Source of the DNA: Synergistaceae bacterium
GTDB taxonomy: Bacteria > Synergistota > Synergistia > Synergistales > Aminobacteriaceae
NCBI GenBank assembly: GCA_017405525.1
Contig: JAFRAH010000041.1
Span: 1 to 33,122 of the forward strand
Reading direction: 5' to 3'
DNA: 33,122 bases
Shown here in pieces: positions 4,721 through 32,299 of this stretch (positions within the stretch are counted from its first letter, which is position 1; each line of letters begins with the position of its first letter). Position numbers and translations under genes: made by a program. Under the pieces are notes generated by a model, which saw only the letters and a program-made list of their open reading frames with translations, made no database searches and was not told the origin of the DNA.

Positions 4721-6130
4721 TTATGGCCTTCCCTTCATCCGCAAGAAGAACAATGACCCGGCCGCTATCCAGATTACGAGGAGGACATACGACGGGAAAT
4801 CAAGCGAGCAGTCAAGTCCCGGAACTGGCACAAGAAGAAGGAACGCAAACATCACCGAGAAGATGAACCCGGCCGCTCCGAGAATAACTATATCCCTCCT
4901 GCCTTCAGAGAACGCGAAACGTACAGCCGCCAATGAGGTATACCCGAAACTTATTGCCCCGCCGATTGATGACATGTCCACCGTCCAGCCCAAGGCGTTG
5001 CGTCCCACGAACGGCGCAAGGAACGAGACAGCCGCACAGAAGATTACTGCCTTGAAGGGGACTCCCTCAGAATTAAGCTCACTGAACCATGACGGAAGCA
5101 TCTTTTCCCGTGCCATCGAGCAGAGAAGTCGGCTCGTTGCCATGTAGAAACCAAGTATCCCAGTCAGCATTGCCATTACTGCTGACACGCTTATGATGAA
5201 CACGCCCGAAGTCCCCAGAATTTTCCGGGCCGCTTGGAATGACGCAATGCCTTCAACGCCTTTCAGTCCCGGAAGCTCGGCAACATAGCTCACCCAGTCA
5301 GGATAACGCTCAGGTATTCCGACAGCCGAAAGGAGATTCAGGACTACATACACGAAGCAGCCGCAAAGAATCGCCGTGTCCATTATGGGCTTTGCGTGCC
5401 TACGTGGAAAATCTGCCTCACCCATGAAGACAGGGACAACGTCAAACCCAACGTATGCCCAAGGTGCAACAACAAGGACTGAGACAACCTGCGACAATGC
5501 CCCGCCGTGCTGTGGGTCTTCAGGCCAGAACATAGGGTGAAGCTCCGCCGAAGATACCTCCGGACTGAAGAGTGCCCCGCCAAGAACCGGAAGTACCCCG
5601 GCAATGAGAACTACAACAAAAACTGACTGAAGCCTCCCGGCAAACCTCCCCCCACGAAAACAGGCAAGAGAAAAAACCGAAAGTGCCGAAAGTGCCAGCA
5701 AGACCTCCCCAGAATAGACATCATAGCCCGCAACTGTATAGTGGAACCCAAACTGGAAGATGCTCCTCTCTGACACCGCCCGGAAGACAAGAGCAAGTGC
5801 CGTGCAGTTCATCGGGATGATCATAATGTAGCAGAGCCCCAGGAACCAAGCGCATATGAAGCCGTGAGTCCTGCCGAATGCTTTTTCTGCGTACACGAAC
5901 TGACCGCCTGAGTCCGGGAATTTCTCTATCATGTATGCATAGCTGTAGGAGATCGTCAGCATTATGAGTGCCGCCAGCTCCATCGCAATCAGAGTTCCCA
6001 TAGTCCCGGCTCTCTTCAGGAAGGTAGTACCAGGCATCATGAACGAACCGAAGCCTATTACTCCACCGAAAGCAAGAGACCAGACACTAAACGCTGTGAG
6101 ACTCCTCTTCAGGGTATGCGTTGTAGGCAT
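4721..6130 (-). CDS. APC-family amino-acid permease (downstream paralogue)
   Basis: This 469-residue integral membrane protein has about 12 hydrophobic segments. The first helix region carries GGVIGFGSFMMPG, the unwound-helix glycine motif of the amino acid-polyamine-organocation superfamily, and a conserved EKFPDSGGQFVYAEKAFG loop follows helix 2. It probably moves amino acids across the inner membrane; the substrate cannot be read from sequence. It is a clear paralogue of the upstream permease (same LKR-LT--WSLAFG-VIG start, same MLTGILGFYMATSRLL region). Its start overlaps the upstream gene's end by 44 bases, and the upstream gene's G10 tract lies 11 bases before its ATG, where it could serve as a ribosome binding site. 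Confidence 0.9.
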   Translation of the reverse strand: MPTTHTLKRSLTAFSVWSLAFGGVIGFGSFMMPGTTFLKRAGTMGTLIAMELAALIMLTISYSYAYMIEKFPDSGGQFVYAEKAFGRTHGFICAWFLGLCYIMIIPMNCTALALVFRAVSERSIFQFGFHYTVAGYDVYSGEVLLALSALSVFSLACFRGGRFAGRLQSVFVVVLIAGVLPVLGGALFSPEVSSAELHPMFWPEDPQHGGALSQVVSVLVVAPWAYVGFDVVPVFMGEADFPRRHAKPIMDTAILCGCFVYVVLNLLSAVGIPERYPDWVSYVAELPGLKGVEGIASFQAARKILGTSGVFIISVSAVMAMLTGILGFYMATSRLLCSMAREKMLPSWFSELNSEGVPFKAVIFCAAVSFLAPFVGRNALGWTVDMSSIGGAISFGYTSLAAVRFAFSEGRRDIVILGAAGFIFSVMFAFLLLVPVPGLDCSLDFPSYVLLVIWIAAGSLFFLRMKGRP

Positions 6131-7568
6131 AATTACTTATACCCCCCCCCCATTTACGCCGAATGTAGTAGAACAAAATACCGAGAACTATCCATGCAAT
6201 AAGGAGTAAATATGCCTCATGACCAAGCGAGACGTTGAGGCCGGGAATTGGCACGAGGATTAGTACGGCAATTCCCAGCGAGAGAATGAAGCCCAGTACC
6301 CCGAAAATCACAATGTCAGTTCTCTTTTCGTTCCATGCGTATTTTGCCGCCGCTATTGACGTGTACGCAAAGCCTATTGCCGCACCGATTGAGGCCATGT
6401 CGAAAACCCAGCCCATAACCGCACGCCCAAGAAGACAGATCAGCGCAGAAACAACCGTGCAGAACAGCCCGGCATTCGAGGGCACTCCGTCATTGTTGAG
6501 GCGTGAGAACCATGAGGGGATCATTCCGTCCCTCGACATCGAGTAGAGCAGCCTGCTTGTCGCCGTGTAGAACCCCAAAATTCCCGTGAGCATGGCCGCA
6601 ATCACTGAGGCAGTAATCACTCCGAGCCCTGCCCTTCCCATCACTATGTGCGCGGCGTTGAGGGTAGCTATTCCGGCAGTACCGTCTTGGTTGGGGAGGT
6701 CGGCAATGTAGGCAGGCCATGAATGATGGTACACATAGGGAACGACAGAACACGCAAGAACCGTCAATGCAATGTACACGAAAGCCCCGCAGATTATGCT
6801 TGTGTCCATGACCACCTTAACGCGGTCAGACGAAAATTTTGACTCCTCCATCAACTGGGGGACTGTGTCGAAACCTACGAATGACTGAGGAGCTGTAACC
6901 AGTACGGCAATTATCTGGGCAGCTATCCCGTTGGTGAAGTCCGGGGTTACCGGGTGGAACATCGGGTGAATGTTCTCCGGGCTCGCTGAGGGGCTCACCA
7001 GTGCCGCACCCATGACTACGAGAATGCCACCCAAAAGTATGAACACAAGGAAGGTCTGAAGGCTCCCGGTTATGTGGACACCCTTCGAGGTTATCATCAT
7101 GAGGACGAACATAGAGCCTATAGCAAGGAGCATCTCCCCAAAATAGACATCATAGCCTGAGACCGTGTAGTGAAACCCGAACTGGAAGGCATCCCCAAAG
7201 ACCGCCCGCATTATGATGTTCAGGGCTGTAGCGTTCAGGGGGATGACCGAAAGATAGGAGAGGCTCAAAAACCACGTACAGACAAATCCATGATGACCCC
7301 CGAAGGCCATCTTGGCATATATGAACTCGCCCCCGGTCAACGGAAATTTCTTTATCATGTAGCTGTAATTATAGGCAATGATGAGCATAATCAACGCGGC
7401 AATCTCCATAGCAATAAGAGTTCCTAGAGGGCCGGCGTTCTTGAGGAATAAAGTTCCGGGCATAACGAACGCACTCCAGCCTATGACACAGCCAAAAGCC
7501 AATGACCATACATTAAGCGGGGTAAGGTTGCGCTTGAGCTGCCTGCCTGTATCTATCATGAATAACAT
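6087..7568 (-). CDS. APC-family amino-acid permease (upstream paralogue)
   Basis: This 493-residue protein has about 12 membrane helices and the APC glycine motif in helix 1 (GCVIGWSAFVMPG), then KKFPLTGGEFIYAKMAFG and a conserved MLTGILGFYTATSRLLYSMSRDGMIP segment in the second half. It probably imports or exchanges amino acids. It is first in a two-gene unit with its paralogue, consistent with duplication and substrate divergence. Its C-terminal 20 or so codons contain a G10 tract, so a one-base slip would replace the tail and change the overlap with the next start. The start at 7568 is preceded by AAAGGA at a slightly long distance; a second ATG (MIDTGR) is four codons in. Confidence 0.9.
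   Translation of the reverse strand: MLFMIDTGRQLKRNLTPLNVWSLAFGCVIGWSAFVMPGTLFLKNAGPLGTLIAMEIAALIMLIIAYNYSYMIKKFPLTGGEFIYAKMAFGGHHGFVCTWFLSLSYLSVIPLNATALNIIMRAVFGDAFQFGFHYTVSGYDVYFGEMLLAIGSMFVLMMITSKGVHITGSLQTFLVFILLGGILVVMGAALVSPSASPENIHPMFHPVTPDFTNGIAAQIIAVLVTAPQSFVGFDTVPQLMEESKFSSDRVKVVMDTSIICGAFVYIALTVLACSVVPYVYHHSWPAYIADLPNQDGTAGIATLNAAHIVMGRAGLGVITASVIAAMLTGILGFYTATSRLLYSMSRDGMIPSWFSRLNNDGVPSNAGLFCTVVSALICLLGRAVMGWVFDMASIGAAIGFAYTSIAAAKYAWNEKRTDIVIFGVLGFILSLGIAVLILVPIPGLNVSLGHEAYLLLIAWIVLGILFYYIRRKWGGGISNYAYNAYPEEESHSV
6142..6151 (-). repeat. Homopolymer tract of ten G in permease 3' end
   Basis: Ten consecutive C on the plus strand, G10 in the coding sense, encode the WGGG part of RRKWGGGISN near the C-terminus of the upstream permease. 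The tract ends 11 bases before the ATG of the next permease. Tracts of this length are prone to slipped-strand length change. Confidence 0.9.
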
Positions 7569-13445: not shown

Positions 13446-13456
13446 TGTTATATAAT
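13446..13456 (+). promoter_or_regulatory. Probable promoter of the four-gene GTPase operon
   Basis: The sequence TGTTATATAAT contains a perfect TATAAT (13451-13456) and, read one register earlier, TG-T-TATATA. No good -35 is seen. It lies about 46 bases before the TTG start and diverges from the rplI promoter 40 bases away. Confidence 0.55.
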
Positions 13457-13485
13457 GCACCCGTAAAGTTCCACAGAAAAAATCT

Positions 13486-13501
13486 ATATGGAGGTCCATA
13501 T
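13486..13501 (+). promoter_or_regulatory. Inverted repeat enclosing the ribosome binding site
   Basis: ATATGG and CCATAT form a perfect 6-base inverted repeat around the loop AGGT. The ribosome binding site GGAGG (13490-13494) overlaps the left arm and the loop, followed by an 8-base spacer and TTG at 13503. Folded RNA could partly mask the binding site; the DNA palindrome could also be a protein site. It identifies TTG 13503, not ATG 13488, as the start, because that ATG overlaps the binding site itself. Confidence 0.5.
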
Positions 13502-13502
13502 T

Positions 13503-15794
13503 TTGAGCAGGGAGAAAATTAGCAGCATCATCCAGCGCAGAAAGCCCTTCGCAAAAAATATCATTGACGCAAAAAACAGCCTCGATAAAATCCTCGAACA
13601 GTTCATCAGGCTAAAAGGCATTTGCTCCTCTGCCCTCTCTGATGATTCCCTCACGTCCGAACGCGAAACAGTCAGCGAAATTTTCAGGAGGTTCAACGCC
13701 CGCAAGGCTGATGAGCTTCAGGCAGGAATGACGAACATACACCGCCGCCTTTCACGCGACACACTCAACATTGCGGTGATAGGTCTTGCACGTCAGGGGA
13801 AATCCCGGCTCCTCCAGACAATCACGGGACTCAGCCCGGACGTTATCCCCGACAGCAACGGCTTGGTGTGCACCGGTGTACGCTCAGACATCATCAATGA
13901 CCCGGACGCAACAGAAACATTCGCATACGTCAACTTCCTCAGTGAGGAGGAGTTCATCACCAACACAGTGGGAAAATACTTCAGGGAGCTCCAGAAACAC
14001 AAGCCCGGCATAGAACCTCCAGAGAATATAACCGAGTTCCGATACTGCCAACTTCCCGACAAGGAGACCTTCAGGACCGAAAACATAGAGGACGAAACGA
14101 GAATGCGCAACTATATCGGGGAGCTCAGGAAGTTACAGGCTCACCTCTTGGAGTACCAGCCCTACTTAGGCACAGGAAGGAGCGCGAAAATCCCGGAGAG
14201 TGAGATACGCCGCTACGTCATCCAGAATGACCCGGAGACAGGCGAGGAATATCACAGGCACATGGCCGTTGAGAGTGTGGAGATACACTGCAAGTTCCCG
14301 AATCAGGAGGTTGGGGCTCTGAGGCTGATTGACCTTCCGGGACTGGGTGATACACGTTTGGGCGACACTGAACGAATGATTGAGGCTCTTGCGGATCAGG
14401 TAGACCTTGTATTTTTCGTTACCATGCCGAGAAGCACAGGGGAAGATGTATTTTCCGGGGACATAAACCTTTACTCACAGGCAAGGCGCGCACTTGGGAG
14501 AAAACTCCCGATAGAACGCTGGTCATTCTGGGTCATCAACCACAACACAAGCAGTGAGAACATGAAGCAGTGCCAGGATTTTGAGCAGACACTAAAGAGC
14601 AAGGATATTCACGTGGCAAAAACCATCATTGCCGACTGCACGAATGAGGACGAGGTAGCCACAAGACTCATTGACGAGGCACTAAGTTTCCTTGAGGCCA
14701 ACATTGAGCGCAACGACAAGGAATATGCCGCAAGCCTTCAGGAGATGATGAACCAGGTAGTGAAGAACCTCAACGATGTACTTTCTGAGGCTAAGGGTGT
14801 CTTTGCTGATGATAAGAGTTTCGAGAAGGACAGCGAATTGCTCGACAGGTTGTTTGACGCACTGCTTGATGAACTGATTGACGGCCTTGTTGGGAGCGTT
14901 GAGCCTGAGTCATTTCTTGGCCGCCGGAAGAATGAGCCCTGCACCGAACTGCGCGAACAGTTCAACAATACTCTTGAGGGTGAGGAGAAAGCCGCAGATG
15001 ATGGGAAGATAGGGAGCATTACCCCGGAGGTTGTGAGGAAGATGGTACGCCGTGCAGGGTCGCCGGAGTCAGCCTATGCTAACCTGATGCACCAGCTCAG
15101 AACGGAGCTCAGCGGGAAGATGCAGCAGGAACTTGACGAGACACTTGAACGCGTCGTATTGGTACCCATGAAGAGGGAGCTTTGCAAGGTGCTTGCCGAG
15201 AACGGAAAATTAGGGATGTACTTTCACGCCAAAGATGAGGGAATACTCAAGGAGATAATCGCGTTCATTGAGGACGGGAAAAAGGACTTAATGCCCGCAG
15301 TTCTTGACGGCCTGAAGAAACTTGACGAGGCTACAATAAGCTGCCAGAACAGAATACAGCCATTAATCCGTGAAGCCCTCAACCTGTTAGACCCAATGAA
15401 GGAAGAGTCCCGCCAGAGAAGGGCAATACTCACCGATGCCGAAGGGATATATACATCACTGATAGAGATATACCGCGACACACTCGCAACTTTGCGTGAG
15501 AGCCTTGACCGTGAGGAGATATATTCAGAGCCTAACGAGTTCGCTTTTGCCACGGCTGATAATTTCGTCGAGGACCTAGTGAGGCGGGACAGCGGGGCAT
15601 CGTCGCTCAACGTCATAAAGATAGATACACAGTGGCGGGCATTGTACAGGTACATACGCGGGGAAATATGGCCGGAGGAGTTCGGGAACTCACAGGCAAG
15701 AACTGAGGCATTCGCGAAAATTTCCGGGCCCTTGAGCACCGTCCTGACACTGTGCAGTAACATGAACTTCAACTTTTCATCACAGGGGGTTTAA
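13503..15794 (+). CDS. Dynamin-like large GTPase (first gene of GTPase operon)
   Basis: This predicted 763-residue protein has an N-terminal helical segment of about 85 residues, then a GTPase domain. The P-loop is GLARQGKS (about 94-101), the G3 motif is DLPGLGDT (about 277-284), and the G4 position carries VINHNT (about 344-349) instead of the usual NKxD or TKxD. About 175 residues separate P-loop and G3, an unusually long insert. The C-terminal half (about 385-763) is long and charged helical, like the stalk of dynamin-family or dynein-like GTPases. No transmembrane helix is seen. The start is TTG at 13503 with a GGAGG site. The next gene begins four bases after its stop, with AGGGGGT inside the end of this gene. 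I assign the superfamily (P-loop GTPase, dynamin-like by architecture) but not a named family. Confidence 0.75.
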   Translation: MSREKISSIIQRRKPFAKNIIDAKNSLDKILEQFIRLKGICSSALSDDSLTSERETVSEIFRRFNARKADELQAGMTNIHRRLSRDTLNIAVIGLARQGKSRLLQTITGLSPDVIPDSNGLVCTGVRSDIINDPDATETFAYVNFLSEEEFITNTVGKYFRELQKHKPGIEPPENITEFRYCQLPDKETFRTENIEDETRMRNYIGELRKLQAHLLEYQPYLGTGRSAKIPESEIRRYVIQNDPETGEEYHRHMAVESVEIHCKFPNQEVGALRLIDLPGLGDTRLGDTERMIEALADQVDLVFFVTMPRSTGEDVFSGDINLYSQARRALGRKLPIERWSFWVINHNTSSENMKQCQDFEQTLKSKDIHVAKTIIADCTNEDEVATRLIDEALSFLEANIERNDKEYAASLQEMMNQVVKNLNDVLSEAKGVFADDKSFEKDSELLDRLFDALLDELIDGLVGSVEPESFLGRRKNEPCTELREQFNNTLEGEEKAADDGKIGSITPEVVRKMVRRAGSPESAYANLMHQLRTELSGKMQQELDETLERVVLVPMKRELCKVLAENGKLGMYFHAKDEGILKEIIAFIEDGKKDLMPAVLDGLKKLDEATISCQNRIQPLIREALNLLDPMKEESRQRRAILTDAEGIYTSLIEIYRDTLATLRESLDREEIYSEPNEFAFATADNFVEDLVRRDSGASSLNVIKIDTQWRALYRYIRGEIWPEEFGNSQARTEAFAKISGPLSTVLTLCSNMNFNFSSQGV

Positions 15795-15798
15795 CGGG

Positions 15799-17073
15799 AT
15801 GGTCATAAACATATCGGTAACAGGCCGTCCATTCTCTGGGAAGACCTCGCTCATTTCGTCCATCTATAAGGCACTTGATGCATCAATGCCCGGTTACTTC
15901 AGGCTGCCCGAAACAGAAGACTTTGACGCTCTCGGCAAATCATGGGACAACCTCAAAGCATCGGCCTCATCAAGCAGGTCAGAATTTGCGGTGAAGTTCA
16001 CGGGTTCAGACAACAGCGAAATATGGGAGTATGACGTTCTCATGAAGTCTGGAAGGGATGAATTGACGTTCTGCTTTCAGGAAGACCCGGAGGACACACG
16101 GGACACAAAGATATTCGTTGCTGTTATTGATACCCCGCTCCTTATGTCCGGCCATGAAGAGGCATCAGGCGTGAAAGAGGCTGTTGATGTGTTCACCAAG
16201 GCACTGAATGACGGAGGCAGCAGGCTGCTTCTTGTTGTCCCTGTGAAGTGTGAGGCATATACCAGGCGCGACAACCGGGAATTTCTCGCGCGCATCTCTG
16301 AGGCATTCAGTGAGGTGGCTGAACTCTCACGGACGGAATACAGGGGACGTTCAGCGGTTGCAGTGATACCCGTCCATACGATGGGAGGGGCGGCGTTCTC
16401 GGAATTTCTCAGGGATGACGGGAAGATCAGCGGTGAAAAGTTCAAGCGCGACAAGAACGTAAACTTCAGGCCGGAATTTGCGGATCAGGTTATGCGTTTT
16501 GCCGTGAGTTTCCTGATACATGACGGGGCATTCAAGACAGAGGGGAAGGAACTAAACGCCACCGTAATGAAAATCGCCTCAAGTGCCGGGCTCAACGATG
16601 AACGTTTTGCGATTCTCTCAGGCCATGAGCTCCTTGAACCCAATGCGCCGGTGAAGAAGTCCGGGGGCTGGAAGGTCGCTGCCATGATTGCGGGGCTTGT
16701 TGTTCTTGCGGGGGCGGGGTATTACGCGTTCGTGAGGATGGACAGGCAGAAGCAGGCAGTAATCGACGAGAGCACCAGGCAGGCAGAAGAGGCAGCATCC
16801 AGGGCACAACAGGAGATAGAGCTTGCCCGCAGTTCAGAGCAGAGCGCAATAACCGAACGTGATGATGCCATGAAGGAAGCCAGCACCTTACTGCGTGAGA
16901 AGGTACAGGCCGAGAAGAGGGCAGAGCGTGCCGAACAGCTAGCAGGACGCTACAAGTCTCAGAACGAGGCATTGCAGGCGGAAATCAGGAAGTTGAGGGC
17001 TGAACTTGAGAGCGTTAAATCACAGCTTGAAGAGGCCGGGAAGAAACGCAAAAAATTCTTGGGGATATTCTAG
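15799..17073 (+). CDS. Membrane-anchored P-loop GTPase with coiled-coil tail
   Basis: This 424-residue protein has a P-loop at the very N-terminus (GRPFSGKT, 9-16), IDTP at the G3 position (110-113), VVPVKCEAY (146-154) at the G4 position and AVIPVHTMG (188-196) at the G5 position. The GTPase-like part ends near 285. One transmembrane helix follows (about 291-313) and then a continuous coiled coil (about 316-418) ending in a basic KKRKK patch. It is a paralogue of the next gene product: both share VPVKCE, PV-TMG and FRPE--DQ--R-A-SFL. It resembles the double-GTPase families reported in bacterial GTPase-centred conflict systems, but that link is inference. It may tether the complex to the membrane. 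Confidence 0.75.
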   Translation: MVINISVTGRPFSGKTSLISSIYKALDASMPGYFRLPETEDFDALGKSWDNLKASASSSRSEFAVKFTGSDNSEIWEYDVLMKSGRDELTFCFQEDPEDTRDTKIFVAVIDTPLLMSGHEEASGVKEAVDVFTKALNDGGSRLLLVVPVKCEAYTRRDNREFLARISEAFSEVAELSRTEYRGRSAVAVIPVHTMGGAAFSEFLRDDGKISGEKFKRDKNVNFRPEFADQVMRFAVSFLIHDGAFKTEGKELNATVMKIASSAGLNDERFAILSGHELLEPNAPVKKSGGWKVAAMIAGLVVLAGAGYYAFVRMDRQKQAVIDESTRQAEEAASRAQQEIELARSSEQSAITERDDAMKEASTLLREKVQAEKRAERAEQLAGRYKSQNEALQAEIRKLRAELESVKSQLEEAGKKRKKFLGIF

Positions 17074-17088
17074 GGAGGTGAACTAGTC

Positions 17089-18063
17089 ATGAATGAACTG
17101 CACTTTACGGTGCTTGGTCCTTCAGGTTGCGGGAAAACTACACTTCTTGCCTGCATGAACGAGTATTTCGGGCGGGTAATGTCAGGCTCTTTTGAGGCAG
17201 GAGACACGGAGATATTCAAACGTCTCAGTGATGCCTACACTAGGCTCAAGGACAAGGCAGATGACAACGGCCATGAAATCATATTCAGCGGCGGAATTGA
17301 AGGGACTGACGCGGAAAAGCAATACCCTTTCACCCTCAAGGGCAGCAGGAGGAACATAGCCTTGAGATTTTTTGACTTCCCCGGCGGATGGATTGACCCA
17401 AGAGACCCGGAGAAGTCAATACACTTCAAGAGGGTATCAGAGACAGCCCAAAGCTCTAAAGTAATTATAGCGGTGATAAATTCGCCCTACCTCATGCAGT
17501 ACGACGGGAAATACAGGAATTATGCCGGGATTGACGAGACCGAATACATCATAGAGAACAGCCTGACCCCTGACGGCGGGGACAAGCTGATACTTTTAGT
17601 GCCGGTTAAGTGTGAGAAGTACCTGACTAACGGGAAATATGCCGAGCTCTTACGTGGTGCGGTGAAGAAATACTTTACCAGGACTATAAGCCTTGCGGGT
17701 AACCAGTCGCCATATTACGGGAAACTTGCGGTTGCGATTTTGCCGGTCAAGACGATGGGCAACGTACAGCTAAGACGCTTCGAGGTCAGAGACGGGGAGC
17801 CTGTTCTCACCTTCGGGACAACCGGGAGCGTCTTCCGTCCTGAAGACACCGACCAGCCTTTGCGTTATGCCCTGAGCTTTCTTCTTGGGCAGTACATGAA
17901 GAGGCGTTCCGGGTTTACTGCGGCGTTGGACTGGGTATTTGGCGGCGGAAACCTCGACAAGATTATTGCCTCAATACGTGAGGGGATGAGGGAGAATTTC
18001 CGGGGCTCTGAGATTATCGCGGGGCGTGAGCTTTTGGGTTTCCCTCCTCGTGAAGGTGTATGA
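17089..18063 (+). CDS. Soluble P-loop GTPase, paralogue of preceding gene
   Basis: This 324-residue protein has P-loop GPSGCGKT (10-17), G3-like DFPGG (96-100), G4-like LVPVKCEKY (170-178) and VAILPVKTMG (215-224). The domain is close to that of the preceding gene product over its whole length, but has no membrane helix or coiled coil. The conserved SGSFEAGDTEIFKRL segment after the P-loop matches the place of the switch I region. It starts 15 bases after the preceding stop with a strong AGGGAGGTGA site, so it is well translated in the same operon. Two paralogues in one operon suggest a heterodimer of a soluble and a membrane-bound GTPase. The nucleotide is presumed GTP, not proven. Confidence 0.75.
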   Translation: MNELHFTVLGPSGCGKTTLLACMNEYFGRVMSGSFEAGDTEIFKRLSDAYTRLKDKADDNGHEIIFSGGIEGTDAEKQYPFTLKGSRRNIALRFFDFPGGWIDPRDPEKSIHFKRVSETAQSSKVIIAVINSPYLMQYDGKYRNYAGIDETEYIIENSLTPDGGDKLILLVPVKCEKYLTNGKYAELLRGAVKKYFTRTISLAGNQSPYYGKLAVAILPVKTMGNVQLRRFEVRDGEPVLTFGTTGSVFRPEDTDQPLRYALSFLLGQYMKRRSGFTAALDWVFGGGNLDKIIASIREGMRENFRGSEIIAGRELLGFPPREGV

Positions 18064-18064
18064 C

Positions 18065-18982
18065 ATGGCCGGTGATTTTCTTTTCCTGACACGCACGAAG
18101 GGCAGCGATTACACCCTGAGGATGAACAGCGGCGAAAATGCCGGGAGCACTGACGAGGCAGCGTTCAGGGAGATGCTCAGGCTCTCAGGGGTTAAGGGCA
18201 CTGAGTATCCATTTGCCGAGCTCGTGAACATGGGAGGGGATGATTTCTGTCTCATGGCCGGGGGTCTCCAGACAGGAAGGAAGGACAGGGACGGAAGACC
18301 TGTGCGTTTCACGTTCATGATGACGCTGGGGAAGGACGATGCCGCAAGCTCATTCATGCACCTCGTGGACAGATGGGACGATGTGGAGGGGGTAATGCGC
18401 TCGTGCCTCGATGATGAGGCTTACAGGGAGGACAGAATATTTTTCGGCCATGAAGAATTTTCGGGCTACCTGAAGGACTACGTTACTGATGCCGGAGCTC
18501 CTGCCGAAAACTGCGTCATGAAGTGGGAGAAGTCTTCAGGAGAAATTCACACTGACACCCTAACGCCTCCTGAGCCTCCCGGAAAATCCCGGATGAAGTC
18601 GCTCATTGCCGCCCTTGTTGTCATGGCCGCCGCAGTCCTGTTGATGCTCTTGATGTCCGGCGATGATGAGGACGAGCCCATAATTCCCCCGGAAGTCCAC
18701 GCGCTCAGTGAGGACAAGCCAGCAAATGGGTATGATGCCCTGAGCTCGGAGCTTGAGCTTCTGTCGTGGGACATTCACACAAGATACATGGAGGCCGCGA
18801 AAGACTACGAGGATGCCCGCGATGAGATGGCAAGGCAGGCGGCAATAATGGAGGAGGCAGGTTCAAGGCTCGCGAAAATCTCAGGGGACATTGAGGCGTT
18901 GAAGGGTATTTACTCGGAGCTTGGGACAATCTCAGAGGATGAGGCACTGGAAAGAATATTACGCCTTAAGTCAGGGGAGTAA
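18065..18982 (+). CDS. Single-pass membrane protein with coiled coil, GTPase partner
   Basis: This 305-residue protein has a globular N-terminal domain (1-165, with the conserved-looking stretches DFLFLTRTKGSDYTLRM and GRPVRFTFMMTLGKDD), a proline-rich linker, one transmembrane helix (about 178-198), an acidic stretch (GDDEDEP) and a C-terminal coiled coil (about 225-290). I do not recognise the N-terminal domain. It begins one base after the preceding stop with GAAGGTG as binding site. Its plan (globular, helix, coiled coil) mirrors that of the membrane-anchored GTPase, so the two could pair through their coiled coils. A GTPase-associated regulator, such as a remote member of the GAP1-type proteins of conflict systems, is possible but not shown. 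Confidence 0.65.
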   Translation: MAGDFLFLTRTKGSDYTLRMNSGENAGSTDEAAFREMLRLSGVKGTEYPFAELVNMGGDDFCLMAGGLQTGRKDRDGRPVRFTFMMTLGKDDAASSFMHLVDRWDDVEGVMRSCLDDEAYREDRIFFGHEEFSGYLKDYVTDAGAPAENCVMKWEKSSGEIHTDTLTPPEPPGKSRMKSLIAALVVMAAAVLLMLLMSGDDEDEPIIPPEVHALSEDKPANGYDALSSELELLSWDIHTRYMEAAKDYEDARDEMARQAAIMEEAGSRLAKISGDIEALKGIYSELGTISEDEALERILRLKSGE

Positions 18983-19025: not shown

Positions 19026-20252
19026 ATGTCATTAGCGTCATCCCTCGCCAAATTATGGACTGACACACTAAATGCCTTCAATGGTTCAGGCTATGCTCTC
19101 TTCAGCATTGAGGCTCATCTGTTCTGTGCTGTGGTGCTTGTACTTCTCTTCATGAGGCAACAAAATTCTTCCGGCCAGGAGGAAAGGCTTATATGGCTTC
19201 GTCTGCTCTTCCTTCAGGTTCTCTACTGCCTCGCAAGAATATTCCGTGTCCTTGCTGACGTGGACATAATCCCCCGGACGTTGACGGCTCAATACATGGC
19301 CGCGGCTCTTACGTTCGGGCTCTTCGGGTGCATATGCTGGCAGATGTTCATATACACCGAGACATGCCAGGGCTCAAGGCTGGTTAGTACCCTCTGGAGA
19401 AGGACGCTCTCAGTTCTTCCGTTTGCCTTCAACGCAGCAATGCTCATTGCCTCGCCGTTCACTGGATGGTACATAGACCTTTCGGGCGGTGAAGTCAGTC
19501 TTGGTGTCCTTTGCCCGTTGATGTTCCTCGTGGACATGTCCTATTCTGTGGTGGCATTGGCACTCTGTATCATGAGGCGGCGGAAAATGACCCGTTACGA
19601 GCGCGATACTGCCCCGTTCATGGCTGTCTACCCTGCGTTCCTGATGATCTGCGGACCTCTCCAGCTCATGGCCGGAAAGATGCCGTTCATGTGCTACGTT
19701 ATGGCTGTGGCTGATGTTCTGGTCTATACCGGCTATGCTGACAGCCTCGTATCAGTTGACCCCCTCACGAAAATACCCAACAGGAACGCTTTTACCCGGA
19801 TACTTGCGGAGCGTCTTGGCCGTGAAAATCCCGGAACTGTTCATGTCTTTGCGGTTGACGTTGAGGATCTCGCATCAGTGAACTCGTCTCATGGAAGGCA
19901 GGAGGGCGACAAGGTCCTAGTTACAGTTGCTGGGGCACTCAGGAAGTTCAGGACGGAGGAGCACAGGTGCTATGCTTGCCGCTATCAGGGTGATGAGTTC
20001 ATGATCACGGCGGACATTAAGGACACGGAGGAACGGGAGCTTTTCGCCGAGCACATACGGAACTACGTGAGCAATGCGGCAGTGTCTCAGGGACTGCGCT
20101 ATCACGTGAGGGTTAATATAGGCTGGTCGAAGTATGAACCGTACAGCAGGACGGAGACAATTTCGGGGCTCATTGAGGAGGCTGAAAGGTCAATGAGTGA
20201 GAGCAGGGAGCAGAGAAATTTCCGGGAGATGTGGCAGTCGGCAGGTGAGTGA
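19026..20252 (+). CDS. Membrane GGDEF-like protein with degenerate signature
   Basis: This 408-residue protein has about six or seven membrane helices (residues 24-235) and a C-terminal GGDEF domain. The domain opens with DPLTKIPNRNAF (245-256), typical of diguanylate cyclases, and has the metal-binding FAVDVEDL region. The signature loop reads RYQGDEFM, with Q321 in place of the first glycine, and no RxxD inhibitory site precedes it. Active cyclases make cyclic di-GMP from two GTP; the Q substitution leaves D and E intact, so the domain may be weak, altered or a GTP sensor. It starts 43 bases after the GTPase operon, with AAGGAA as its binding site; a TATAAT at 18983-18988 could give it its own transcript. 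Confidence 0.85.
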   Translation: MSLASSLAKLWTDTLNAFNGSGYALFSIEAHLFCAVVLVLLFMRQQNSSGQEERLIWLRLLFLQVLYCLARIFRVLADVDIIPRTLTAQYMAAALTFGLFGCICWQMFIYTETCQGSRLVSTLWRRTLSVLPFAFNAAMLIASPFTGWYIDLSGGEVSLGVLCPLMFLVDMSYSVVALALCIMRRRKMTRYERDTAPFMAVYPAFLMICGPLQLMAGKMPFMCYVMAVADVLVYTGYADSLVSVDPLTKIPNRNAFTRILAERLGRENPGTVHVFAVDVEDLASVNSSHGRQEGDKVLVTVAGALRKFRTEEHRCYACRYQGDEFMITADIKDTEERELFAEHIRNYVSNAAVSQGLRYHVRVNIGWSKYEPYSRTETISGLIEEAERSMSESREQRNFREMWQSAGE

Positions 20253-27799: not shown

Positions 27800-28138
27800 T
27801 CATAGCCCGTAGCGTTCTATGCGTTCCTCCGCGACATCGTAGACCTGCTCATCCTCGCGAACGTCAATGATGATTACGAGCATCTCCGTCCTTGTGTGTA
27901 TGAGCTTGTAGATTGCCCGCAAGCCCTCACCCCTCAGCTTTATTTCCAGGCAGCCCGTGAGGTTCACGCCTCCCTTGTTGCCGAGCTCGATACCATAGCC
28001 GCCCTTACTGCGTGGCAGAGGATTCGTCAGCGTCCTGTCGATAGCCTTCACTATGCGCTGTCTCTGGCTTCCGTCAAGCCTGCGAAGATCCTTCCTTGCT
28101 TCCGTGAGAAATTCCAGCTTCCAGTGCAGCCCTTTCAT
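27800..28138 (-). CDS. RelE/ParE-superfamily toxin
   Basis: This 112-residue small basic protein has the RelE/ParE pattern: a helical start (EFLTEARKDLRRLDGSQRQRIVKAIDR), the GCLEIKLRGEGLRAIYKLI strand region and MLVIIIDVREDEQVYDVAEER at the end. Such toxins cut mRNA on ribosomes or poison gyrase; which one cannot be told. It overlaps the preceding antitoxin by four bases (ATGA), the usual antitoxin-first order. It is the last gene of the defence run. Confidence 0.8.
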   Translation of the reverse strand: MKGLHWKLEFLTEARKDLRRLDGSQRQRIVKAIDRTLTNPLPRSKGGYGIELGNKGGVNLTGCLEIKLRGEGLRAIYKLIHTRTEMLVIIIDVREDEQVYDVAEERIERYGL

Positions 28139-28443
28139 TCCAGCTCAACCTCCGGCATAGCGTCAATCATCTCCTGAGTTATCCCGAACTCCTTATAGAC
28201 TTCCTCCGCAGGTATCAGCCTCGAGCGGTCAATGTGGTTAAAGCGGTCTTCAGCGACTCTCATTGCCCCGACATCGTAGAACTCCCCCGACATCCTCACG
28301 TAGTCTTCCGGCCTCATGATTATGCACACAGCCGAGTCATCATCGCCGACAACAAGCCTCGTACCCTCGCGCCTGACTTCCTCGAAAACCTCGCTGGCCT
28401 TCCCTTCCCTGAACGCAGAAACAGGAACGGTAACATTTGTCAT
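28135..28443 (-). CDS. Phd/YefM-type antitoxin
   Basis: This predicted 102-residue antitoxin has the Phd/YefM N-terminal DNA-binding fold: TNVTVPVSAFREGKASEVFEEVR, then RLVVGDDDSAVCIIMRPEDYVRM. An acidic C-terminal tail (residues about 65-102) would wrap the toxin. The start is ATG 28443 with GGAGG eight bases before it; a start three codons earlier lacks this spacing. The stop overlaps the RelE-type toxin start. Confidence 0.8.
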   Translation of the reverse strand: MTNVTVPVSAFREGKASEVFEEVRREGTRLVVGDDDSAVCIIMRPEDYVRMSGEFYDVGAMRVAEDRFNHIDRSRLIPAEEVYKEFGITQEMIDAMPEVELE

Positions 28444-28446
28444 TGT

Positions 28447-28497
28447 TCTCACCTCCCTTCACATCCCGAAAAGATCCGCATGACTCCCAAGCCTCTC
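28447..28497. repeat. Direct repeat, copy 1 (with 29037-29087)
   Basis: This 51-base segment matches 29037-29087 at 48 positions. It covers the last codons of the YafQ-like toxin, its stop and the GGAGGTGAG binding site of the next antitoxin. It marks the tandem duplication and is a likely recombination substrate. Confidence 0.85.
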
Positions 28498-28749
28498 CAG
28501 AATCAGCAAGTCCTCACCCTCAAGCGTATACACAAGCACCAAGTCAGGGCGTATATGGCAGTCCCGCGAACCCTCATACTGGCCATGCAAAGGGTGGTCG
28601 CGGTATCTCGGAGGAAGGGGAATATCATTCGCCAGCATATACTTGACGCGGTCAAATTCCCCTCCCTTCACCAGAAGTTGACGGTAAGGGCTTCTCGCAA
28701 CACGCCTCAAATCGCGCTTGAACTCATTGCGTGGGAAAACCTCCCTCAT
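28459..28749 (-). CDS. YafQ-family toxin, copy 1
   Basis: This 96-residue protein matches the YafQ mRNA interferase, a RelE-fold ribosome-dependent endoribonuclease. The conserved catalytic elements are all here: RDHPLHG (H50-like), CHIRPDLVLVY (H63/D67-like) and GSHADLFGM at the C-terminus (H87/F91-like). The start overlaps the preceding antitoxin stop by four bases (ATGA). Its sequence is close to that of copy 2 (29049-29339), so the pair arose by duplication. Confidence 0.88.
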   Translation of the reverse strand: MREVFPRNEFKRDLRRVARSPYRQLLVKGGEFDRVKYMLANDIPLPPRYRDHPLHGQYEGSRDCHIRPDLVLVYTLEGEDLLILERLGSHADLFGM

Positions 28750-29033
28750 GCAATACCCTCCTCTTCCCTCAGCTCGTCAAGCCACGCATCAAACTCATCC
28801 ATGCTCATCGGCCCGGTTCCTATGTCGTTCCTGTCCTCGTACAACGCCCGGATAGTCGCCTCAGTCGGATTCCCGAACCTGTCCCAAACAGGCTCAAGCT
28901 CCGTCCCCCCGTCGTCATAATCAGGGTCAAGATACTTCGGGTCATAGTCGTAGTTCTCGATAAGCTCCTCGATTTCCGCGTCCGTCAGCTTATGGTCGAA
29001 AACGTAGCTCTGCTTCTTCCTCGCAGCCTCCAT
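28746..29033 (-). CDS. Putative acidic antitoxin of YafQ copy 1
   Basis: This predicted 95-residue strongly acidic protein starts MEAARKKQ, then has DHKLTDAEIEEL, NYDYDPKYLDPDYDD, RFGNPTEATIRALYEDRND and GPMSMDEFDAWLDELREEE. It does not look like DinJ/RelB: no ribbon-helix-helix start is visible. Its place, overlapping the toxin start and translated first, and its relation to the copy 2 gene, make antitoxin the natural role. The start is ATG 29033 with GGAGG eight bases before it. Confidence 0.65.
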   Translation of the reverse strand: MEAARKKQSYVFDHKLTDAEIEELIENYDYDPKYLDPDYDDGGTELEPVWDRFGNPTEATIRALYEDRNDIGTGPMSMDEFDAWLDELREEEGIA

Positions 29034-29036
29034 GTC

Positions 29037-29087
29037 TCTCACCTCCCTTCACATCCCGAACAGTTCAGCATGACTCCCAAGCCTCTC
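29037..29087. repeat. Direct repeat, copy 2 (with 28447-28497)
   Basis: This is the second copy of the 51-base repeat described at 28447-28497, spanning the end of YafQ copy 2 and the binding site of the next antitoxin. Confidence 0.85.
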
Positions 29088-29339
29088 AAGCCACAAAACA
29101 TTATCGCCCTCCAGCGTGTACACAAGAAGCAGGTCAGGCCTAATGTGGTACTCACGAGACCCCTCCCACGCGCCATGAAGCGGATGATCCCGGTATCTTG
29201 CCGGAAGGGGTATGTCATCCGCCAGCATACGCACAACCTCCCAGAATTCCCCGCCCTCAGGCAGAAGACTCCTGTATATTCCCTTGCCTTCACGCTTGAA
29301 ATCACGCCGGAATTTGCTTCGGGGTTCTGGCCGCCTCAT
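29049..29339 (-). CDS. YafQ-family toxin, copy 2
   Basis: This 96-residue YafQ-type mRNA interferase has RDHPLHGAWEGSREYHIRPD, LLLVYTLEG and GSHAELFGM, keeping the histidines, aspartate and phenylalanine needed for catalysis in the family. It begins 38 bases before the stop of the upstream antitoxin, a longer overlap than copy 1, but no later in-frame start keeps the conserved SKFRRDFKREGK helix. It shares the PLPxRYRDHPLHG core and C-terminus with copy 1. Confidence 0.85.
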   Translation of the reverse strand: MRRPEPRSKFRRDFKREGKGIYRSLLPEGGEFWEVVRMLADDIPLPARYRDHPLHGAWEGSREYHIRPDLLLVYTLEGDNVLWLERLGSHAELFGM

Positions 29340-29610
29340 CTCTCATCTCCTCGTCAGCTTCTGCAAGCACTTCGGTCATCCAGTCTCCGAACTCTTCCAG
29401 CGTCATAGGCCCCTCGCTGATATTGTGATCCCTCTCGTACCACGCGCAGAGAGTCCCGTACGTAGGATTTCCGTACCTGTCGTAGAATGCACGGTCATAT
29501 GCCAGATCCCCGGTCTCATAGTCAGGGTCATACGTGAAGCGCGCCCAAAGCTCATCCAGCGTCATCTTGCGGTCAGGTCTTACCCATACCGTTTTGCGTT
29601 CTGCCTCCAT
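29302..29610 (-). CDS. Putative acidic antitoxin of YafQ copy 2
   Basis: This predicted 102-residue acidic protein is related to the copy 1 antitoxin. It has MEAERKTVWVRPD, KMTLDELWARFTYDPDYETGD, RYGNPTYGTLCAWYERDHN and GPMTLEEFGDWMTEV, with a longer tail (AEADEEMRDEAARTPKQIPA) that overlaps the toxin gene. No ribbon-helix-helix is seen. The ATG at 29610, with GAGG eight bases upstream, fits the MEA start of its sister; it lies 10 bases after the restriction-modification gene stop. A function as antitoxin is inferred from position. Confidence 0.65.
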   Translation of the reverse strand: MEAERKTVWVRPDRKMTLDELWARFTYDPDYETGDLAYDRAFYDRYGNPTYGTLCAWYERDHNISEGPMTLEEFGDWMTEVLAEADEEMRDEAARTPKQIPA

Positions 29611-29620
29611 AATTCTCACC

Positions 29621-32299
29621 TCACTTCCCCGTAATCTCATGATACATCCCGAAAAGCCCCCTCACTATCTCCTCCTCCCCAATATCCCCAGGCCAACCAT
29701 ACGCCCGGCACACAGCCTCATCATTTCTCTCATGCGCACGCCTCAGCTCAACAGGCATCACCGTGTCATCATACATGGCCGCGAAAGAGCACCCCTCACT
29801 CTCAGCCCTCGCGTCAAGTATTCCCTGCGCAGCCCCCTCAATCCTCGCGCGACCCTTCACGCCCGGCTCAGGCCACGGGAACGTGTTGTACACCATCTCC
29901 ACCGAGTACCTGTAACTCATCCCAAGCCTCCCGCCCACGCGCCTCATCCACGCCATATGCACACGGCTCGTCAGCACCCCGAAATCGTACAGTGTAGCGT
30001 CAGGAATAATCCGTAAACCCTTGCCCGGTATCACGGAGTCATCAAGCCATCCTAACGGGACATAGTAACGGTTCTCTGATGACACTTCCGGGACTGCTAC
30101 ATAATGCGCGGGGTTCATCTGCTCCCGGAAAAGGTGCGGGGTATCTGCGAGTCTCTTCTGTGAACTCTTGAGCCTAATCTCCCTGCAAGCCTTCACTCTC
30201 TTGTACACCAGCGGCATATCACGAATCTCCTGCGAAGTTGCCCCGACAAGCCACAGGCAGTAACGCGGAATGTTGTTGATGAACTCATAGCCCATCATGA
30301 AGCGTTTGATGTACCTTGCTGCTCTTGGCTCTCTCTTGATGAAGTCGGCGTAATCCTCAGCGTTAATGATGAGATTTCCTTTGTCGGCTGGCATGTTCCC
30401 TGCTGTCATGGCCGGGGCACCGGGGCAGATTGGCCTGCTGGTTCTCTCGGCAATATCCTCGTCCGGGCCTTCAGCTAGGTAGAAGTTTATGTTGTCGACA
30501 AGCCTGCAAGTTCCGTCTGAGGAGTAGAGCCTTCTTTTAGCGGGGGGGCATGTGCTGATGCAGACGACAGCGACGTGAACATGAGCCATTTTCGTGGGGT
30601 CAGGAAGCTCATTCTTCCACACGAAAGGCTGATGAGCGAAGTCAATCTTTATCCCCCACCTGTCGCGGAGGGGCTTGAAGACGTAAGCGACCTGTTCACC
30701 CTGAACGAGTGAGTTTGTTGCGACGAAGGCGGCCTTTGTGCGTTTGTCCTGTACGTACTCCGAGGCTTTCGCGAACCAGCACGAGAGGTAATCTATTTCC
30801 CCGTTGCCGAAAATTTCGCGGACTTCCTCCTTCTGGCGTGATGTCTGTTTTGCGCGACCGATGAACGGGGGGTTGCCCATGATGTATAGCATATCCTCAT
30901 GAGGTATCTTCCAGCCTCCTAACTTCCAGCCTTCATTTGGGAGCTCGTCCATTGCTGAGCCTTCCTTGATGTAGTCGTAATCCTTGAGGGGGAGGGGAGG
31001 TTTCTCGGCGTTGGTGATGGGCTGAGTTTCCTTCCACATTTGGTGGTCAGAGATCCATAGTGCAGTGCGGGCTATGTTGACGGCGAAATCGTGAAGCTCT
31101 ATTCCGTGGAACTGAGTGATTGCTGTTTTTGCTGACGGTCTTTTGCCTTCGGGGATAGCGGCGAGGAGTCTGTTCTCTATTCTTCGTAGTGAGATGAATG
31201 ACTCGGTGAGGAAGTTCCCGGATCCGCAGGCTGGATCAAGGAACCGTAACGCGGCTAATTTTTCCTGGAAGGCGAGGAGCTTTAGAGTTCTTGCGTCTGA
31301 CTGAGGCTCTGCTAGGATTTCGGCTAATGTCTCGTTGAGTTCGTCGAGGAACAGTGGGTCAATGAGCTTGTGAATGCTTGCGGTTGATGTGTAGTGAATG
31401 CCGCCTTCTTTGCGTGTTTCGTCATTGAGTGTAGCCTCGAAGATTGCGCCGAATATTGCGGGTGATATTCCTGACCAGTTGAAGCCCTCGGCCATGTCGT
31501 GAATGATTATGTGAAGCTCATCTGCTGACAGTTGCGGGAAGTCTACGGTTTCCTTGAAGAGTCCTCCGTTGACGTGCGGGAATGCTTTAAGCTCCTGCCC
31601 AAGGAACGGGTCTCTGTCGGGAATGTCGGTATTGAGGACAGCGAACAACTTTGCGAGTGCGTCTCTTGCCATGATAGCGCGGGGCTTGAGGTAGTCGTGG
31701 AACTGTGATTTTGCGAACAGCCCGGAGTCTTCGGCGTAAAGGAGGAAGACAAGCCTGACGCAGAAGACGTTGATGTTCTTGCGTGCTTTCTCGTATTCCG
31801 GGGATTTCCGGGAGCTTTTGGGGAAAACGTCATGAAGTGAGCCGAGCATCGAGTCATAGAGTGATTTAGCGAGTTCGCCTGCCTTGATGGAGATTGCGAC
31901 CTCAAGGGGTAATGTTTCGCCGGGAGTGAGGAGGAACGAGAGGTTATCCCTTGATGCCATATCTGCCGGGATGATTTCGGGGGGTTTTGTGGGGTTCTCC
32001 ATGTCGTGGATGTGCAGCGTGTTGAAGTCGCAGGTGATGATGTATCTTCCGCGCTGGGAGAGTGGCAGCCAGTCGTGATAGTTCTTTGCCTGTGTGAAAG
32101 CGTCATCAAGATTTTTGCCCGGTGATTTCTGCTCTATGATGGTGCCTGTTGATGGGACGTAGGCATCAATGAACTTGACGTGCTCAATCTCGACGCGTTT
32201 CTCGAACTCGATGTAATCCTCCGGGTTAATGACCCCGAACTTGTCGCGTATGAGTGTCAGCCAGAATACTTGTGTGTAACTCTTCTCGTTGATGTCCAT
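29621..32299 (-). CDS. MmeI-like single-chain type IIL restriction-modification enzyme
   Basis: This 892-residue protein has the MmeI layout. The N-terminal PD-(D/E)xK nuclease has D45 and E56-Q-K58 in DAYVPSTGTIIEQKSPGK, close to the D-x9/10-ExK of this family. A helical spacer includes AEDSGLFAKSQF. The gamma-type adenine methyltransferase has motif I LDPACGSGNFL (354-364) and NPPF (476-479), and the target recognition domain lies around 600-850. Such enzymes both methylate one strand of their site and cut nearby; the site cannot be read here. All key residues are present, so it looks active. The start is ATG 32299 with GGAGG seven bases upstream. It heads the toxin-antitoxin run and has its own extended -10 promoter. 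Confidence 0.9.
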   Translation of the reverse strand: MDINEKSYTQVFWLTLIRDKFGVINPEDYIEFEKRVEIEHVKFIDAYVPSTGTIIEQKSPGKNLDDAFTQAKNYHDWLPLSQRGRYIITCDFNTLHIHDMENPTKPPEIIPADMASRDNLSFLLTPGETLPLEVAISIKAGELAKSLYDSMLGSLHDVFPKSSRKSPEYEKARKNINVFCVRLVFLLYAEDSGLFAKSQFHDYLKPRAIMARDALAKLFAVLNTDIPDRDPFLGQELKAFPHVNGGLFKETVDFPQLSADELHIIIHDMAEGFNWSGISPAIFGAIFEATLNDETRKEGGIHYTSTASIHKLIDPLFLDELNETLAEILAEPQSDARTLKLLAFQEKLAALRFLDPACGSGNFLTESFISLRRIENRLLAAIPEGKRPSAKTAITQFHGIELHDFAVNIARTALWISDHQMWKETQPITNAEKPPLPLKDYDYIKEGSAMDELPNEGWKLGGWKIPHEDMLYIMGNPPFIGRAKQTSRQKEEVREIFGNGEIDYLSCWFAKASEYVQDKRTKAAFVATNSLVQGEQVAYVFKPLRDRWGIKIDFAHQPFVWKNELPDPTKMAHVHVAVVCISTCPPAKRRLYSSDGTCRLVDNINFYLAEGPDEDIAERTSRPICPGAPAMTAGNMPADKGNLIINAEDYADFIKREPRAARYIKRFMMGYEFINNIPRYCLWLVGATSQEIRDMPLVYKRVKACREIRLKSSQKRLADTPHLFREQMNPAHYVAVPEVSSENRYYVPLGWLDDSVIPGKGLRIIPDATLYDFGVLTSRVHMAWMRRVGGRLGMSYRYSVEMVYNTFPWPEPGVKGRARIEGAAQGILDARAESEGCSFAAMYDDTVMPVELRRAHERNDEAVCRAYGWPGDIGEEEIVRGLFGMYHEITGK

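Follow-up and report, generated by a model that had tools for sequence, protein, structure and literature searches.

A conserved four-gene operon of Synergistaceae predicted to encode a dynamin-family GTPase, a DO-GTPase2-type switch, a degenerate paralogue of the switch and a longin/TagF-like membrane protein

Four genes lie end to end in the genome of a rumen bacterium of the Synergistaceae (2.17 Mb, 43 contigs), three of them encoding P-loop proteins and the fourth a single-pass membrane protein. Do they make up one system and, if so, is it a known one? A preliminary description, made from the letters of the window (the whole 33,122-nt stretch of DNA that was analysed), had proposed one machine assembled at the membrane, in which a dynamin-like large GTPase is controlled or fed by a soluble and a membrane-anchored GTPase.

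Gene layout and protein families

ORF calls on the window placed genes A, B, C and D co-directionally on the + strand from 13488 or 13503 (according to the start of A) to 18982 (Table 1), and the ORF coordinates confirmed the gaps of 4, 15 and 1 base reported earlier for A/B, B/C and C/D. Two starts were considered for A: the TTG codon has the sequence GGAGGT seven bases upstream and matches where relatives of A start in their alignment, and the ATG codon sits just before GGAGGT. A longer GTG-start ORF of D overlaps C. The ribosome-binding sites, all described at first as good, are uneven: the Shine–Dalgarno sequence of C is clear (GGGAGGTGA), B has GGGGG/GGGA and the site of D is weaker. Since relatives keep all four genes, both at the protein level and in their order, the set is not a chance one. 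Three of the relatives' loci come from Synergistaceae/Synergistales MAGs (goat rumen, sheep and red deer).

Table 1. Positions of features in the window and in the related records named
Feature	Position	Strand	Remarks
Shine–Dalgarno GGAGGT before TTG start of A	13490–13495	+	Read directly off the sequence
Gene A, predicted dynamin-family large GTPase	13503–15794	+	763 aa from TTG 13503
Gene A, alternative start	13488–15794	+	768 aa from ATG 13488
Gene B, predicted degenerate DO-GTPase2 paralogue of C	15799–17073	+	424 aa
Gene C, predicted soluble DO-GTPase2-family switch	17089–18063	+	324 aa
Gene D, predicted longin/TagF-like head, TM and helical tail	18065–18982	+	305 aa, ATG 18065
Gene E, membrane diguanylate cyclase-like (GGDEF) protein	19026–20252	+	43 bases after D
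Two adjacent paralogous amino acid permeases	4721–7568	−	ORFs overlapping by 44 bases
Region of strong negative GC skew	27800–29640		About −0.25 to −0.33
MmeI-like type II restriction enzyme-methyltransferase	29621–32299	−	About 10 kb from the operon
Nostoc sp. ATCC 53789 plasmid pNsp_h, dynamin-like and DO-GTPase-family genes	L114:1299–10514		
Geminocystis plasmid pGM01, DO-GTPase and D-like genes	L119:5821–11536		
Congener G041, contig C61, fused DO-GTPase domains	L140:6445–9909		
Congener G041, contig C61, D-like protein	L140:9894–12007		

The Pfam model Dynamin_N scored window A at 24.5 bits, 2.5 bits short of the cut-off of 27, and was matched at E ≤ 1e-3 by all 18 relatives of A (best 4e-7). 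G1 of window A is GLARQGKS and G3 is DLPGLGDT; both are invariant in the 18 relatives, with G1 as G[RLK]ARQGKS, and the elements of a dynamin-type G domain (G1 GxxxxGKS, G3 DLPG) were thus found throughout the family. G4 is non-canonical (NHN in the window; NHD, NRD, NHN or NHK among relatives, rather than [NT]KxD). A long helix-rich region without predicted TM segments follows the G domain. An AF2 model of A computed from four near-identical sequences had a pLDDT of 42 and was unusable. The A-family profile also matched plant dynamin-related protein 1A in the PDB (E 1e-4); its interferon matches fall on a generic helical stretch and were disbelieved. By family membership A is assigned to the dynamin-family GTPases, as the preliminary description had held.

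Alignment of B with C (34% identity, E 8e-20) shows that the two are paralogues. Against the DO-GTPase2 model (PF19993) both window proteins are subthreshold (C 18.9 bits, cut-off 27); orthologues that are 37–70% identical to window C surpass the cut-off with up to 47.3 bits, and the model was matched by 21 of the 25 family members (best E 4e-12). Window C carries GPSGCGKT, DFPG and VPVKCE and has no TM, and most members of the A and C families likewise have none. In 17/17 relatives C keeps G1, DFPG and VP[VI]KCE, so that P-loop and G3 are intact. A conserved glutamate in the Walker B motif is a trait of the DO-GTPase family (PMC7159879); some C orthologues have a candidate for it (DFPGEW), and window C reads DFPGGW. 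We assign C, on these motifs, as a soluble DO-GTPase2-family switch, which agrees with its earlier reading as a soluble paralogous GTPase.

Window B has the P-loop GRPFSGKT and VPVKCE, without a G3 motif. G3/switch II is missing from all seven members of the B group, in which the P-loop is kept in five and lost in two and KCE/KSE is present in six; the functional G1 plus G3 expected of DO-GTPase2 is therefore lacking in B. A single TM (residues 293–311 in the window) precedes a coiled-coil-like tail of 113 residues, and the same layout recurs in 7/7 B proteins with tails of 104–117 residues. Because G3/switch II is lost throughout, B is most likely a membrane-tethered pseudo-GTPase, a degenerate paralogue of C. 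It had been described as a membrane-anchored GTPase with a coiled-coil tail; anchor, tail and paralogy to C stand, and activity as a GTPase is improbable (G3 in 0/7).

D had been taken for a single-pass coiled-coil protein, which is right for its single TM (residues 179–197) and its helical tail of 108 residues but overlooks a conserved globular N-terminal domain (about residues 1–166, motif TGRKDRDGRPVRFTF). In 17 relatives this head shares F.F.TRT..DYR and a stretch around G...G.KD..GR.I.FSF, with Asp D74 invariant and Arg R78 nearly so. One TM is present in 16 of the 17; the tail is variable and not conserved. None of the 17 members matched a Pfam family in the profile search, and a PDB sequence search with D gave no convincing match.

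The AF2 model of the D head (pLDDT mostly 70–91) has strands (E) and helices (H) in the order E6–10, E16–20, H28–41, E50–55, E60–73, E79–89, H90–102 and H104–114. This predicted order, b-b-a-b-b-b-a-a, is the canonical longin order. The top Foldseek match was TagF of type VI secretion (prob 0.97–0.99, E about 1e-3), followed by the longin domain of Lst4, FLCN/FNIP and an Asgard Roadblock-Longin protein. VIA-align superposed the head on a longin (8yqg) with Z 6.0 over 127 residues, on TagF (6iz8) with Z 5.6 over 135 and on Lst4 with Z 5.2 over 125; values of Z under 8 can reflect a common arrangement, and those of D are 5–6, with all three alignments covering the same domain. These fold scores are weak to moderate and mutually consistent, and they agree with the predicted secondary-structure order. 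The D head is thus described here as a conserved unnamed domain with a modelled fold that resembles TagF and longin. Longin and roadblock domains are GTPase regulators and scaffolds.

Linkage in the genus and relatives in other phyla

In a survey of 43 congeners of the window's Synergistaceae genus, A was present as more than a remnant in 16. D is also present in 15 of these 16 and C at least partly in all; the sole A-bearing genome without D (G008) has its locus cut by contig ends. Three gene orders were observed: type I, A-B-C-D (seven genomes); type II, A-(C2)-C-D (loci L042, L043, L044, L045 and L052); and type III, A-D-C (L046, L047, L048 and L050, broken in L053). C occurs in all three. 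The second slot of type II holds an intact C-like GTPase in L042 (with three hydrophobic segments), L043 and L045, and is empty in L044 and in the type III operons. With its slot replaced or absent in types II and III, B is therefore optional.

Pairwise distances of A, C and D correlate with r 0.84–0.88 (5000 permutations, p 2e-4), a correlation that includes shared ancestry and is no proof of contact. An apparent A–D cluster linkage in the neighbour clustering was discarded as an artefact, the broken L053 ORF running from A into D. The preliminary description had asked whether the genes co-occur, and would have been contradicted if they were unlinked in relatives or were each part of a known, unrelated pathway; joint presence of A, C and D was seen in 15 of the 16 A-bearing genomes, and neither contrary situation was encountered in the relatives. 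Linkage in relatives, together with joint variation, therefore supports the view that A, B, C and D form one system.

Two copies each are carried by G010 and G041, and broken copies were found in G024, G040, G042 and G016, those of G040 and G042 being remnants; G024 has an intact type I operon and a broken type III operon. Because presence is patchy and copies are broken, reduced to remnants or duplicated, the operon is accessory and has been repeatedly lost in the genus. A was found in none of 62 other genera of the phylum.

Other phyla were sampled through plasmid records only. In these, tblastn detected relatives of A (27–32% identity, coverage up to 97%, E to 1e-82) in Nostoc, Aulosira, Pseudanabaena, Stanieria, Calothrix, Anabaena, Nonomuraea and Streptomyces. 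In Nostoc carneum, Aulosira, Nonomuraea and Streptomyces a C homologue directly follows A (profile E 3e-21 to 3e-54), with PxKCExY and PxxTxG in common, and a third gene then encodes a protein with a C-terminal TM. When the ORFs were ranked by single-sequence hhalign with the D-head profile, the third gene of Streptomyces came first of 184 (E 0.0012), that of Nonomuraea came sixth and that of Nostoc was not above background; for this reason homology to D is claimed, tentatively, for Streptomyces alone.

The relatives of A in Stanieria and Nostoc sp. ATCC 53789 adjoin other DO-GTPases. On plasmid pNsp_h of the latter a dynamin-like gene is divergent from three tandem DO-GTPase-family genes, which are followed by genes for proteins of 812 and 387 aa, both unknown, and a vWA protein. 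Two Calothrix plasmids carry A without an annotated DO-GTPase nearby, so A can stand without C. The converse was also seen. Plasmid pGM01 of Geminocystis lacks A but has three genes for DO-GTPases and two for D-like TM proteins (alike in motif and layout only), near an annotated anti-phage dCTP deaminase, a dGTPase and fragments of a UvrD-helicase, and this region is possibly a defence cluster. On contig C61 of G041 two DO-GTPase domains are fused in one protein together with a TM and a long C-terminal part; next come a D-like protein, which has a TM and the motif DLYGR, and then a probable secreted protein. This locus is a dynamin-free relative of the system. From the pairs without A in Geminocystis and G041 it follows that the core is likely a DO-GTPase with a longin-like TM protein, and A a partner or effector.

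The same exceptions, A without a recognised C in Calothrix and C-like with D-like genes lacking A in Geminocystis and G041, are what one would expect if A, C and D were co-inherited neighbours with separate roles and formed no single machine. That is very improbable in our judgement, given the tight spacing, the retention of A, C and D in three orders, their correlated divergence and the recurrence of the arrangement in three phyla.

Genomic setting and comparison with known systems

Neighbours of the operon in the genus are housekeeping genes (rplI/dnaB, PTS, flavin reductase, MATE, DprA), and its GC content is in line with the surroundings. Type I sits upstream of the GGDEF gene E, a same-strand neighbour in 7/7 type I loci that is possibly co-transcribed. 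In L046, which lacks type I at this place, E and the next gene (cl8) are 129 bases apart; in L040 the ABCD block occupies the space between them. Type III lies between MATE and HAD genes (cl6/cl4), a pair separated in L040 by about 160 bases. E was rejected as a member, since in L046 and L047 it occurs by itself beside the PTS genes. Its signature is QGDEF rather than GGDEF. Co-transcription of E, if true, would tie c-di-GMP signalling to the operon.

Few defence genes were recognised among 79 neighbour proteins (one type IIG R-M enzyme and single DrmMI, mads and PDC matches), and placement in a defence island, which the preliminary description had wanted checked, was not clearly borne out in the genus. 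Searches with PADLOC for a catalogued anti-phage system gave only LeoBC, ZorA and mads matches, weak and chance-like (E 3e-5 or worse). A phage or viral origin was also discarded, the system being absent from the phage records and viral contigs searched. Elsewhere in the window there are two permease genes, an MmeI-like gene, homologues of which adjoin the same MATE gene region in L047 and L054, and a GC-skewed region in which both strands carry many overlapping ORFs and tandem repeats are lacking (Table 1).

These surroundings, the composition of the operon and the conservation of A (56% mean column identity) fit a housekeeping or envelope-repair role, in which a dynamin resembling DynA would patch or fuse a damaged inner membrane and the switches would position it, with no part in conflict; bacterial dynamins are reported to act in membrane surveillance (PMC8844932). 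We regard this as unlikely, since presence in 16/43 congeners, repeated breakage, duplication and carriage on plasmids elsewhere are unusual for a housekeeping function.

DO-GTPases have been proposed as switches of conflict systems (Kaur, Burroughs, Iyer & Aravind, 2020; PMC7159879). Their systems combine a DO-GTPase with GAP1 and, besides these two, have GASH (type 1) or FNIII-repeat (type 2) components and variable effectors; two paralogues occur in 38% and a TM component in 67%, and dynamin, longin and TagF are unmentioned (PMC7159879). The present operon resembles them in its DO-GTPase2-type switch, often with two paralogues, its membrane-associated partners, a constant core with variable parts and its patchy spread. 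It differs in that GAP1, GASH, FNIII, tubulin, HSP70 and zinc ribbon were not detected in it, in the additional dynamin-family GTPase and longin/TagF-like TM protein, and in the loss of G3 from B.

A variant of the DO-GTPase–GAP1 conflict systems, with D a reduced and diverged GAP1 and A a variable effector, is the closest competitor to be weighed. C orthologues are DO-GTPase2 by Pfam, paralogous GTPase pairs and TM components are typical of those systems (PMC7159879), the DO-GTPase/D-like pairs of Geminocystis lie near annotated anti-phage genes, and in G041 the fused DO-GTPase pair is followed by a D-like protein. The profile check proposed in the preliminary description nevertheless returned DO-GTPase2 for the C/B family and Dynamin_N for the A family, and GAP1 nowhere: GAP1 models matched neither D nor any of its 17-member family, GAP1-N2 was absent at profile level from the genome and five plasmid records, and no GASH or FNIII match was obtained among the four operon proteins. 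An identification of D as GAP1 by sequence was therefore rejected. D is also much shorter than the three-domain GAP1, and the defining survey names no dynamin (PMC7159879). Such a variant origin is doubtful, if quite conceivable. The operon would work like a DO-GTPase system, yet it is not classed as a DO-GTPase–GAP1 system: GAP1 and GASH/FNIII are absent at profile level, and dynamin and longin-like parts are added.

With bacterial dynamin-like proteins (DynA; LeoABC of PADLOC) A shares large size, dynamin-type G1 and G3 and a long helical part, and from this likeness it is likely to be a membrane remodeller; its scores are, in contrast, borderline (Dynamin_N as given above, LeoBC 21 bits). 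LeoABC-type systems have multiple dynamins and are not known to include a DO-GTPase or a longin-like partner. DynA of Bacillus is reported to protect against phage (PMC8844932). The Rag–Ragulator/FLCN and MglA–MglB modules likewise place a longin/roadblock-type domain, sometimes membrane-anchored, beside a GTPase or a pair of them; C, however, is DO-GTPase2 and not Ras-family, and the D head is similar by predicted fold only (Z 5–6). TagF is the best fold match of the head, but D adds a TM and a helical tail and a significant sequence match is absent; among the neighbours examined, none was recognised as a type VI secretion gene. The conservons of Actinomycetota (cvnABCD) are also operons of four genes that combine a GTPase with a roadblock-type regulator and a sensor protein; their GTPase is Ras-like, however, their sensor resembles a sensor kinase, and they have no dynamin (PMC13343842).

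A search of open-licence papers yielded no description of this gene set, in keeping with the initial remark that no named system has exactly these components; the system is apparently undescribed so far.

Proposed mechanism and significance

At the level of sequence this is a real, conserved multi-gene system with a switch of the DO-GTPase kind, and its architecture is well supported. The reading that we put forward, and hold about as probable as not, is one membrane-associated GTPase machine with a role in conflict or envelope damage, in which membrane-anchored D (with B) sets C and C triggers A. C would be the nucleotide-dependent switch. D would anchor the machine, its cytoplasmic longin/TagF-like domain binding and regulating C by analogy with the way in which Rag, MglA and Rab GTPases are bound by longin and roadblock domains. 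B would be a fixed, membrane-tethered second G domain and form an asymmetric pair with C.

Positive-inside counts gave five N-in, no N-out and two equal cases for B, and a mixed result for D (11 N-in and six N-out among those with a difference); the residue counts favour N-in for B and, less clearly, for D. If the B G domain and the D head face the cytoplasm, the tails are on the outer side of the inner membrane, where they may sense the envelope. Being probably across the membrane from the G domains, the tails of B and D are an unlikely meeting place of the GTPases. The D tail would instead report on the envelope; on a trigger at the sensing side the C/B/D complex would change state and recruit or license A, which would assemble on the inner membrane and remodel it, either sealing damage or killing an infected cell. 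That these complexes form, in what order they act, what triggers them and that they serve in conflict or envelope stress are all inferences of ours. A conflict role is consistent with the accessory distribution, the duplicates, the broken copies and plasmid carriage elsewhere. Of the single membrane machine first proposed, linkage, co-variation and the single-pass nature of two of the four proteins speak in its favour; B as an active GTPase does not survive.

Small switch GTPases that steer dynamin-type remodelling through membrane-anchored longin regulators are a hallmark of eukaryotic endomembranes. It is a speculative and rather unlikely idea that the operon is a bacterial counterpart in logic of Rag–Ragulator/FLCN controlling a dynamin, with a longin-like anchor, a pair of active C and dead membrane-bound B and an envelope or phage trigger, and that it represents a widespread, undescribed class in at least Synergistota, Cyanobacteriota and Actinomycetota. 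Were the same set of parts encoded in one compact bacterial operon, this eukaryote-like logic could be tested in four genes. It would also extend DO-GTPase systems to a membrane-remodelling effector and would name four protein families that are annotated mostly as hypothetical. Should it prove to act in defence, the restraint on its dynamin would come from a switch and from the dead paralogue of this switch.
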